Shown piece after piece: positions 12,996 through 44,452 of a stretch of DNA of 44,452 nucleotides. Numbering within the stretch: the stretch's first letter is position 1; each line of letters opens with the position of its first letter. Position numbers and translations under genes: made by a program. The stretch comes from Oscillospiraceae bacterium (GTDB lineage: Bacteria > Bacillota > Clostridia > Oscillospirales > CAG-272), in NCBI GenBank assembly GCA_015064345.1, contig SVSK01000013.1, positions 1 through 44,452 on the forward strand. Reading direction: 5' to 3'. The notes below the pieces were generated by a model. The model had not been told where the DNA came from. It did no database searches and saw nothing but the letters and a program-made list of their open reading frames with translations.

Positions 12996-13918
12996 TCTAC
13001 GTATATAACTTCTCGCTCAATGGCGCAACCGAATTTTTCAAGTATGGCTTTCTGAATGTGAGAAATAAGATCTTTAACATCCTTGGCTGTTGCGTCACCG
13101 ATGTTGATGATAAATCCGGCGTGCTTTTCCGACACCTGTGCTCCGCCGACCGTGTAGCCTTTCAGCCCTGCTTCGTCTATCATCTGAGCGGTAAACCTAC
13201 CCGGATAACGCTTGAACACGCTTCCCGCGCTGGGATATTCAAGAGGCTGCTTTGTGACACGGCGATTCATAAAGTCGTTCATCATCTCGGTGATCTCGTC
13301 GCTATTGCCCGGCTTAAGCTCGAACTTTGCAGACAGAATGATGCGGTTTGTGTGCTTGTATATGCTGTCGCGATAGCCGAAATTATGCTCGTCAAGCGTG
13401 ATGGTGTGCACTGTCAGATCATCAAGATCAAGATATGTACTTTCACGGAGCACGAATGCAACCTCGCCGTTGTATGCACCTGCGTTCATGTAAACTGCAC
13501 CGCCTACAGTACCGGGTATTCCGTTTGCAAATTCAAGTCCTGTGAGAGAGTTATCACGTGCTACCTTTGAGAGTGCAGTAAATGAATGACCCGCCTCTGC
13601 AAAGACTATATTATCCTCGCATTTCACTCCGCGCAAGGCACAAAGAGACACCACCGCACCGCGATATCCTTCATCGTCAAACAGCACGTTACTTCCGTTT
13701 CCGAGGAAGTAGTTGCGGACGCCTGTTTCCTTGATCATGCCGCAAAGATCCGTGAGAGACTGAATGTTCAGCGGGGTTATATATAAATCAGCAATGCCGC
13801 CAATACGAAAAGTTGTATGACGGCTCATAGGCTCATTATATTCTATTTGTATGCTGTCTGTGTGGGTTTTGTTGTACTCATTTACGAGTTCACACAGCTT
13901 TGTTAAATTATCAGTCAA
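12992..13918 (-). CDS. murB: UDP-N-acetylmuramate dehydrogenase
   Basis: HTTFRIGG, NYFLGNGSNVLFDD, GLEFANGIPGTVGGAVYMNAGAY, PSAGSVFKRYPG. Confidence 0.96.
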   Translation of the reverse strand: MTDNLTKLCELVNEYNKTHTDSIQIEYNEPMSRHTTFRIGGIADLYITPLNIQSLTDLCGMIKETGVRNYFLGNGSNVLFDDEGYRGAVVSLCALRGVKCEDNIVFAEAGHSFTALSKVARDNSLTGLEFANGIPGTVGGAVYMNAGAYNGEVAFVLRESTYLDLDDLTVHTITLDEHNFGYRDSIYKHTNRIILSAKFELKPGNSDEITEMMNDFMNRRVTKQPLEYPSAGSVFKRYPGRFTAQMIDEAGLKGYTVGGAQVSEKHAGFIINIGDATAKDVKDLISHIQKAILEKFGCAIEREVIYVE

Positions 13919-13933
13919 GTTGACCTCCGATAA

Positions 13934-14632
13934 TTATATAATTTCAAAAAGATCCGTGAGTTTACTAATATTATATGTCAATATCCGACCTTTGTCAGGC
14001 TGATTCTTCGGGTTGAATCTGCAGATATCAAGCCCGTATGCTATTGCTCCGTCGCAGTCCGATGTGAGAGAGTCACCGATAACAAGATAAGCTGACCTGT
14101 CGCTGTCTCCCACCGCGTTCAAAACGTAGTCAAAGTAGCCTTTGTCAGGCTTTGTATAACCGATATTCTCGGAAATGAACATTTTTTCAAAATAAGGCTC
14201 AAGTCCCGATATAGCAAAGCGGGAGATCTGAATATCGGCAATACCGTTTGTTACGATGAACATGCGGTATTTCTTCGAGAGAGCCGCGCACACCTCAACC
14301 GCATTCTCTATAAGGCAACCCTGCTGACCGAGAGCACGGATATACTCCTTCTTCATTGCAACAGCAAGCGCCTCACGTTCGTCATTGTCCCCGTGTCCGA
14401 GTCTACCGAGCAGAAGTCTGAATCGCTCTGTCTTAAGTGCCTCAAGAGTTATAGTACCGACCTCAAGTCTCTTCCAAAGAGAGTCGTTGATCTCGGAGTA
14501 GTCCGCGTACAGCTCTTCACTGTACACAAGTCCGCAGTTTTCAGCCGTTTCCCGAAAGGCCAAATACTCTGCCCGAGAAAAGTCGAGCAAAGTATTGTCC
14601 ATATCGAAAAGTATATACTTATATTTTGCCAT
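13934..14632 (-). CDS. YjjG family noncanonical pyrimidine nucleotidase (HAD)
   Basis: ILFDMDNTLLDFSRAE, IVTNGIADIQISR, VIGDSLTSDCDGAIAYGLDICRFNP. Confidence 0.85.
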   Translation of the reverse strand: MAKYKYILFDMDNTLLDFSRAEYLAFRETAENCGLVYSEELYADYSEINDSLWKRLEVGTITLEALKTERFRLLLGRLGHGDNDEREALAVAMKKEYIRALGQQGCLIENAVEVCAALSKKYRMFIVTNGIADIQISRFAISGLEPYFEKMFISENIGYTKPDKGYFDYVLNAVGDSDRSAYLVIGDSLTSDCDGAIAYGLDICRFNPKNQPDKGRILTYNISKLTDLFEII

Positions 14633-15855
14633 TATCTTACTACCTTGTGGTAGGTCTTCTTACCCTTCTTAACGATAACGCCGTCGCCGTCAAACTTGTC
14701 AGCCTCAACAGCCATATAAACGTCAGTTACCTTTTCATCGTTAACAAGGATACCGCCCTGCTGAACAAGACGTCTTGCTTCGGACTTGGATGCGCACAGG
14801 CCTGCCTTAACAAGCAAATCCATCACACCGATCTTGCCATCAACAAAGTCTGCGTCAGTGAGAGTTGTTGTGGGCATGTTTTCAGTAATTCCGCCGCCTG
14901 CGAACAGAGCCTTTGCAGCGGTCTGAGCCTTTGTAGCTTCTTCTTCGCCGTGTACAAGCTTTGTAAGCTCGTATGCGAGAATTTCCTTAGCGGTGTTAAG
15001 CTGACTGCCTTCCCAGCTGTCCATTGCGTCGATCTCTTCGAGGGGGAGGAATGTGAGCATACGGATGCACTTGAGTACGTCGTTGTCGGATACGTTTCTC
15101 CAGTACTGGTAGAAGTCGAAGGGACTTGTCTTGTTGGGATCAAGCCAAACAGCACCGGAAGCAGTCTTACCCATCTTCTTGCCTTCGGAGTTAAGAAGGA
15201 GAGTGATAGTCATTGCATGAGCGTCCTTACCAAGCTTACGTCTGATCAGCTCTGTACCGCCGAGCATATTGGACCACTGGTCGTTACCACCGAACTGGAA
15301 GTTGCAGTCGTAGTTCTTGTAGAGGTAGTAGAAGTCGTAGGACTGCATGATCATATAGTTGAATTCAAGGAAAGAGAGACCCTTTTCCATTCTCTGCTTG
15401 TAGCATTCAGCGCGAAGCATGTTGTTTACGGAGAAGCATGCGCCAACCTCACGAAGTACGTCAACATAGTTTAGGTCGAGAAGCCAGTCAGCGTTGTTTA
15501 CCATCTGTGCCTTGCCTTCACCGAATTCAATGAAGCGCTCCATCTGCTTCTTGAAGCAATCACAGTTGTGCTGGATAGTCTCGCGTGTCATCATGGAACG
15601 CATATCTGTTCTGCCGGAAGGGTCGCCGATCATTGCTGTACCGCCACCGATAAGGGCGATGGGACGGTTGCCTGCCATCTGAAGTCTCTTCATAAGGCAA
15701 AGCGCCATAAAATGACCTACATGGAGGGAGTCCGCTGTGGGGTCAAATCCGATATAGAAAGTAGCCTTACCGTTGTTGATTAGGTCCTTGATCTGTTCTT
15801 CGTCAGTCATCTGCGCGATCAGACCACGCGCTTTAAGTTCGTCAAAAATAGTCAT
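14632..15855 (-). CDS. tyrS: Tyrosyl-tRNA synthetase
   Basis: YIGFDPTADSLHVGHFMAL (HIGH region), GNDQWSNMLGG, GKKMGKTASGAVWLD (KMSKS-like), C-terminal S4 domain. Confidence 0.97.
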   Translation of the reverse strand: MTIFDELKARGLIAQMTDEEQIKDLINNGKATFYIGFDPTADSLHVGHFMALCLMKRLQMAGNRPIALIGGGTAMIGDPSGRTDMRSMMTRETIQHNCDCFKKQMERFIEFGEGKAQMVNNADWLLDLNYVDVLREVGACFSVNNMLRAECYKQRMEKGLSFLEFNYMIMQSYDFYYLYKNYDCNFQFGGNDQWSNMLGGTELIRRKLGKDAHAMTITLLLNSEGKKMGKTASGAVWLDPNKTSPFDFYQYWRNVSDNDVLKCIRMLTFLPLEEIDAMDSWEGSQLNTAKEILAYELTKLVHGEEEATKAQTAAKALFAGGGITENMPTTTLTDADFVDGKIGVMDLLVKAGLCASKSEARRLVQQGGILVNDEKVTDVYMAVEADKFDGDGVIVKKGKKTYHKVVR

Positions 15856-23877: not shown

Positions 23878-24336
23878 ATGAAAAAAACGAATAAACTAAA
23901 TAAGATCATCTCTGACGGTTGCGTTATCAACACCGTTTTACTTATCGTTTTCTATATCATAGGCGTGTCCCTTGATCCGAATTTCATCCCCACCCTCTCC
24001 CGTGTTTTCGGGATACTCATCTATTCCTTAGCGCTCTCAGCAGCCAACTCTTTCCTCTTCTCTTCAAAGATGAAGCTGTTTTCCCGCCTTGCTCTTCACT
24101 TTATCTTTACCGCTTTGGTTTTCTTTATCTGCTTTGTTTTCATCGGCGGATATAAGGCGAATCTCGGCTCGGTTTTGGTTATCGTCGGTTTGTATCTTGT
24201 TATTTATGCGGTAGTCGGCGGAGCTGTAGCCCTTATTCGCTCTATCCTCAAGGCTGACGAGAACGACAAGAAGGAATACAAGAAGGTTTACGAAAAGAAG
24301 CAAGACTACAATTCTCTCTTCGGCGGTAAAAAGTAA
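23878..24336 (+). CDS. Four-TM membrane protein, DUF3021-like
   Basis: 152 aa, four TM segments, charged C-terminus EYKKVYEKKQDYNSLFGGKK. Preceded by GCGAGGAA. Confidence 0.55.
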   Translation: MKKTNKLNKIISDGCVINTVLLIVFYIIGVSLDPNFIPTLSRVFGILIYSLALSAANSFLFSSKMKLFSRLALHFIFTALVFFICFVFIGGYKANLGSVLVIVGLYLVIYAVVGGAVALIRSILKADENDKKEYKKVYEKKQDYNSLFGGKK

Positions 24337-43933: not shown

Positions 43934-44035
43934 TTGGAGGCGGACAGATTTATTTCCCATTTCACGCACGAGACGTACGATTTATGTTAGTGCAAAAATA
44001 ATCAAAAAAATTATGAAAAAATTTGTATAAAAGGG

Positions 44036-44064
44036 TTGACAAGTGCAAAGTAAAGTGATATAAT
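44036..44064 (+). promoter_or_regulatory. Sigma-A promoter of tRNA-Pro
   Basis: Perfect consensus TTGACA - 17 bp - TATAAT, 25 nt upstream of the tRNA. Confidence 0.88.
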
Positions 44065-44089
44065 ACAAAGGCTGTCAAGCGACAGGTAT

Positions 44090-44165
44090 CTGGGTGTGGC
44101 GCAGTTGGGAGCGCGCTACCTTGGGGTGGTAGAGGCCGCAAGTTCAAGTCTTGTCACTCAGACCA
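44090..44165 (+). tRNA. tRNA-Pro (anticodon GGG)
   Basis: Acceptor CTGGGTG/CACTCAG, D-arm GCGC/GCGC, anticodon stem-loop CTACC-TTGGGGT-GGTAG, T-arm GCAAG-TTCAAGT-CTTGT, encoded CCA. Confidence 0.93.
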
Positions 44166-44166
44166 G

Positions 44167-44202
44167 GAAAACGGGAGATAAAAACTTCCGTTTTCTTTTT
44201 TT
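44167..44202 (+). terminator. Rho-independent terminator of tRNA-Pro
   Basis: GAAAACGGGAG-ataaaaa-CTTCCGTTTTC followed by TTTTTTT. Confidence 0.88.
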
Positions 44203-44289
44203 ATCTCGTTTTTTCTCTGTTTTTCGCCATTGTAACGAGATTTGGCCTCTACACTTTTTATTTTCAAAATCGAGGCGAAAACGGGTTTT

Positions 44290-44311
44290 GTGCATAGTTT
44301 GTGCATAGTTT
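44290..44311. repeat. Tandem direct repeat, 2 x 11 bp
   Basis: GTGCATAGTTT GTGCATAGTTT, exact. Confidence 0.8.
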
Positions 44312-44363
44312 CTTTTGGAGTGCTGTATCAGCCGATTGAAATGAAAAATTTTAGGAGGCTTTT

Positions 44364-44452
44364 ATGGCAAACATCACGAAACGAGCAAACGGTACATACC
44401 TTATCCGCGTATCCTGCGGTCTTGACGAAAACGGAAAACCGATTCAGCGGTC
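44364..44452 (+). CDS. Site-specific (tyrosine) integrase, N-terminal fragment (runs off window)
   Basis: RBS AGGAGG at 44353 and MANITKRANGTYLIRVSCGLDENGKPIQR, which resembles the N-terminal arm-binding domain of Tn916/phage-type integrases. Next to a tRNA 3' end. Confidence 0.75.
   Translation, partial: MANITKRANGTYLIRVSCGLDENGKPIQR

Follow-up and report, generated by a model that had tools for sequence, protein, structure and literature searches.

Left edge of a genomic island integrated at tRNA-Pro(GGG) in an Oscillospiraceae contig, with a complete sister copy in another genus

The last 287 bases of the contig analysed here represent, with a probability of about 0.93, the left end of a genomic island integrated by a tyrosine recombinase into the 3' part of a tRNA-Pro(GGG) gene. 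The stretch of DNA studied, termed the window, is 44,452 nt long and is the entire contig C26 of a 2.02 Mb MAG consisting of 84 contigs and ∼79% complete; these final 287 bases are the part of the island present in it. The feature is a tRNA-targeted genomic island, a well-known kind, seen at its left edge. Its interest lies mainly in recent transfer of the island among gut Clostridia of different genera, at a single tRNA gene, in the defence genes carried by a sister copy and in a recurrent paired-integrase module. The left boundary of a tyrosine-recombinase element had been placed at this tRNA by a first-pass annotation made from the window alone, and that placement is borne out by a reciprocal homology junction, an attR in the sister copy (genome G164) and a full catalytic domain in the integrase of that copy.

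Results

The tRNA gene and the homology junction

The features at the contig end are listed in Table 1.

Table 1. Features at the right end of the window.
Feature	Position	Strand	Remarks
Sigma-70-type tRNA promoter, TTGACA-17 nt-TATAAT	44036-44064	+	consensus match 12/12
tRNA-Pro(GGG), complete	44090-44165	+	ARAGORN; Rfam RF00005, 58.8 bits
tRNA nt 32-76	44121-44165	+	part duplicated as attR in the orthologous G164 element
Terminator hairpin with T run	44166-44196, T run to 44206	+	closes the tRNA transcript; element-borne
Direct repeat TTTGTGCATAG x 2.3, 11-bp period	44287-44311	+	candidate integrase arm-type site
Ribosome-binding site of int, AGGAGGC	44353-44359	+	just ahead of the ATG
intA 5' end (tyrosine recombinase gene), cut by the contig end	44364-44452	+	identical to the start of the G164 integrase

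The tRNA call, the perfect promoter match and the stability of the hairpin (-14.7 kcal/mol, z = -4.45, with no shuffled sequence equally stable) uphold the earlier description of a complete tRNA-Pro with its own promoter and terminator. The promoter is on the host side and has the same place upstream of the tRNA in the relative G005, and the terminator hairpin is common to the window and the G164 element. The tRNA gene is the attachment site (attL) of the island, with the encoded 3' CCA and all DNA beyond it most likely derived from the element. A short tandem repeat, an 18-bp unit present 2.1 times, is also found at window positions 24104-24141.

Comparison with relatives at the same site, as proposed in the first pass, located the junction inside the tRNA. 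The nearest relative in the genus, G005, is 92% identical to the window over 44005-44162, up to tRNA nt 73, and then diverges; its own tRNA-Pro does not encode CCA. Thirteen full-length tRNA-Pro(GGG) genes found in the genus likewise match the window only up to nt 73, after which the sequence in G005, G006, G008 and G015 is unrelated to the window, these genomes having the same site and no island. In the window and a few others, CCA is followed by the hairpin and short direct repeats. Conversely, G164 belongs to another genus of the same family; its contig is JAFUIQ010000032.1 in the named collection, a Clostridia MAG of roe-deer rectum origin. Of the 287 bases following the tRNA it has 283 in common with the window, including all of the last 175, whereas its sequence upstream of the tRNA is unlike that of the window and its tRNA shows differences in the D-loop and T-arm. 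Because G005 matches upstream only and G164 downstream only, the homologous partner changes inside the 3' end of the tRNA, where the island has restored a complete gene. Such a switch is exactly what integration at this position produces and is hard to explain otherwise.

Two hints bear on the position of the crossover. Comparison of the window, G164 and G005 favours nt 64-76, as the T-arm follows the host, and attR fragments beginning at nt 28-32 favour the anticodon loop. At a further locus, L171 (G267:C13:554-809), a full tRNA-Pro is followed 161 bp on by a copy of nt 57-76 only and then by an IntA element; this copy is possibly the footprint of a crossover near the junction of T-arm and acceptor.

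The truncated integrase gene and a complete sister element

An ORF at 44364-44450 on the + strand, starting 199 bp past the tRNA and open at the contig end, encodes MANITKRANGTYLIRVSCGLDENGKPIQR. Searched alone against Pfam, its 29 residues matched no model, and the presence of only 29 integrase residues in the window counts against the island reading. The ORF is called an integrase because these residues are the first 29 of the 398-aa G164 integrase, with identical DNA across 89 coding bases. The integrase-like ORF reported ∼200 bp past the tRNA on the same strand is thus recognised through the G164 N-terminus and not from the window alone.

The sister element occupies ∼26.7 kb of G164 (G164:C30 100151-126806) and comprises the tRNA, integrase, cargo and attR, with a GC content of 43.8% versus 56.4% in the left flank. 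The earlier annotation had made its reading depend on two predictions, both borne out in this orthologous copy. The full integrase contains the Phage_integrase catalytic domain (PF00589, E = 5e-32) with R, K, HxxR, H and Y all present, in addition to PF14659 (E = 3e-9), and the tRNA 3' repeat expected within ∼200 kb downstream is found as a displaced 3'-half copy, tRNA nt 32-76, ∼26.6 kb downstream of the tRNA (attR, L091:7851-7906 = G164:C30:126751-126806). The repeat at window 44287-44311 has the heptamer GTGCATA as its unit. In the sister element this heptamer is found twice within ∼140 bp of attL and four times in the 225 bp next to attR, with just one further occurrence on the same strand. 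Tyrosine integrases usually have their arm-type sites in repeats close to the two element ends, and the placement of GTGCATA suggests that it serves as such a site here. Genome G013, from the genus of the window, holds the right 4 kb of the G164 element at 88-93% identity, ending at tRNA nt 73 and encoding proteins 94-99% identical; the element therefore circulates in the window's genus as well.

Gene order in the sister copy, read from attL, begins with IntA and a convergent unit in which a 175-aa protein is paired with the second integrase, IntB (410 aa, PF00589). These are followed by an AAA_25 ATPase related to DnaB-type helicases, a DUF6076 protein and a radical SAM/SPASM protein, then by an Avs2-like STAND NTPase (PADLOC E = 2.5e-22) and a T5orf172 protein, a type IIG restriction-methylation protein (PADLOC 1236 bits) with a second methyltransferase, and a Fic protein. 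DUF3990, VWA, ArsC-like and macro-domain proteins and an AAA_14/DUF4143 ATPase complete the cargo, which by its annotation appears largely defence-like (type IIG R-M, Avs2-like NTPase, Fic). Immediately beyond attR, G164 also encodes a CBASS-type pair, a CD-NTase with an HNH-SAVED effector (L091:9017-11618 = G164:C30:127917-130518), located in a second, tandem element-like segment with two further integrases (L091 ∼13490-15738).

The window's copy may carry cargo similar to that of G164, although it could differ, and the element might instead be a prophage or conjugative element (ICE) rather than a defence-type genomic island. The integrase does match phage integrase families (PHROG 1), and integrases of this type occur in all of these element types. 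However, no relaxase or type IV secretion gene was detected among the Pfam-scanned proteins of the sister copy, which comprised all but a few ORFs <140 aa, nor any phage structural or packaging gene among the proteins scanned against Pfam and PHROG. Viral contigs and phage records contained no near relative, no phage record matched the left end, and plasmid records yielded only integrases of <60% identity. We consequently consider a prophage or ICE improbable and retain the genomic island as the preferred interpretation.

The contig end and the source genome

The remainder of the island was not recovered from the source MAG. In this 79% complete assembly, whose contig stops inside the element, no attR was detected at ≤3 mismatches and no other pieces of a G164-type element were found. 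Neither of the integrases on contigs C44 and C61 (a 385-aa integrase and a XerC/D-like protein) continues the window ORF, and a match on C12 is just a 25-bp promoter-like match.

A contig end so near the tRNA could in principle reflect a misjoin, the 287 bases of an element from another species in the same gut sample having been joined through the conserved tRNA during assembly or binning. Termination of the contig 287 bp past the tRNA is consistent with such a chimera, as is the near identity of the element end in another genus, and in the genus relatives G001, G002 (C57), G013 (C51) and G019 contig ends likewise fall in the first 300 bp downstream of the tRNA and never in the 300 bp preceding it. 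However, the T-arm of the window (AAG..CTT) matches its own clade, G005-G008, and not the TGG..CCA of G164, and only ∼13 identical bases span the junction with the G164 copy, given two mismatches within the first 20 bases past the tRNA. A very similar right end is moreover present within the same genus, in G013. Together these observations make a chimera very unlikely. An equally slim chance attaches to a dead remnant, in which deletion of an old element spared only its left end: no other part was recovered from the MAG, but the sequence stops at a contig end and not at a deletion junction, and it is 99% identical to the intact copy in the other genus with no differences in 89 coding bases. 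This identity and the unchanged coding bases indicate that the island arrived recently.

Contigs of five genomes in the genus, including the window (44452), end ≤300 bp downstream of tRNA-Pro(GGG) and none ends ≤300 bp upstream (L045, G002:C57 end; L043, G001:C131; L057, G013:C51; L025, G019:C239). This suggests that assembly breaks at polymorphic or shared islands, and that in metagenomes such islands tend to be cut by contig ends just past their boundary, with the result that their cargo is missing from MAGs.

The integrase family and its site preference

IntA relatives occupy the corresponding position at 25 other loci, on the same strand and 199-294 bp downstream of tRNA-Pro(GGG) or, in tandem arrays, of its 3' fragment. 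These loci span many genera and some other families of the order and include a few near-duplicates; for G267 the distance is measured from a second tRNA fragment, and in G096 the Pro tRNA call has the anticodon CGG. At nearly all of the 25 a hairpin lies immediately 3' of the tRNA and an 8-14-bp direct repeat with 11-12-bp spacing follows ∼95-150 bp past the tRNA, or further in a few; repeats equivalent to that at window 44287-44311 are present at nearly all family loci. The preference for tRNA-Pro(GGG) is thus family-wide, and is as a rule not shared by remoter integrases (<∼40% identity).

At three related loci the integrase is in the opposite orientation, and two of these are complete elements of ∼8 kb with tRNA and attR, in which the related integrase faces the tRNA (L166:580-9109 in G178 and L165:4697-12537 in G262). 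The G178 element encodes a 590-aa primase/helicase-like protein and Fic-like proteins, as judged by eye. At L222 and L227 (G325:C37 and G359:C73), IntA relatives lie away from an intact tRNA-Pro and near degenerate tRNA fragments, 84-94% over nt 32-68 or 32-63, which are possibly decayed attachment sites.

A recurrent module of two integrases and a winged-helix protein

IntA, a protein of 153-176 aa and IntB co-occur in at least 12 genomes. In the tree the two integrases fall into distinct groups with 99/98 support. IntA and IntB distances correlate across loci (Mantel r = 0.78, p = 0.0006), a correlation that common descent of the host lineages could also give. The small protein matches nothing in Pfam or PHROG. 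Its structural model (mean pLDDT 77) contains two copies of a strand-helix-helix-strand-strand-helix arrangement, a tandem winged-helix, for which the best fold matches were the double winged-helix TraN and, per domain, the excisionases RdfS and Pukovnik Xis, none being significant by E-value. From the modelled fold, a role as directionality factor, equivalent to Xis, is plausible.

Obligate partnership of the integrases is weakened by IntA without IntB in G262, G178 and G741 and by IntB with the winged-helix protein and without IntA in G045, and their pairing appears common and not obligatory. The G045 element (L226/L169 = G045:C9:60395-76638) extends 16 kb from tRNA to attR; IntB and the winged-helix protein lie towards its right end, and IntA was not detected. 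Open-licence papers yielded no description of this two-integrase arrangement. That these loci represent a so far undescribed group of tRNA-Pro(GGG) elements of gut Clostridia moving by a paired system, consisting of a tRNA-adjacent IntA and a convergent winged-helix/IntB unit whose IntB lineage is separate but co-inherited, is a speculative and rather doubtful proposal. If it held, one recombinase might serve integration and the other excision, or each might act at its own end, attL or attR; the recurrent arrangement offers a concrete, testable case of two-recombinase island control.

Discussion

The island has moved recently between gut Clostridia of different genera at a single tRNA gene, and the following mechanism is proposed for its integration. 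The attP of the island would carry a copy of the tRNA 3' half, such that integration rebuilds an intact tRNA, to which the island here would additionally supply the encoded CCA and its own terminator. The terminator would stop the tRNA transcript ahead of int, which has its own ribosome-binding site. The N-terminal domain of the integrase probably binds the GTGCATA repeats at both ends as arm sites while the catalytic domain would act at the tRNA core. The sister copy of ∼26.7 kb has two integrases, a replication-type ATPase, defence-like cargo and a tandem winged-helix protein, which may act as the directionality factor. The island may still be mobile today.

In Islander-class tRNA-targeted genomic islands, an intact tRNA and a displaced 3' fragment bracket the integrase and cargo (PMC4383910). 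The present island shares this organization, including restoration of the tRNA by the island, with an intact tRNA at one end and a tyrosine integrase inside (29 residues here, full length in the sister copy). It differs in that the 3' fragment, expected in the same orientation and 2-200 kb from the tRNA, is seen in the sister copy only (at ∼26.6 kb) and that CCA and a terminator are also supplied.

Integrases of the lambda Int and Tn916 Int type are tyrosine integrases with an arm-binding domain. The sister-copy integrase resembles them in having an N-terminal domain, a SAM-like core-binding domain (PF14659) and a catalytic domain (PF00589), with direct repeats near both element ends; unlike in those systems, arm-site function is here suggested by repeat placement alone.

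The module invites comparison with GInts, the ginABCD islands, in which a single operon encodes three integrases together with a small helix-loop-helix protein (PMC5385486). Both have several tyrosine recombinases and a small putative DNA-binding protein at one end, together with variable cargo; the sister copy, however, has two convergent integrases and a tandem winged-helix protein located at a tRNA, and so falls outside the GInt definition. IMEs (PMC5704250) similarly combine site-specific integration with the lack of a transfer apparatus of their own, differing from the sister copy, in which no relaxase was found.
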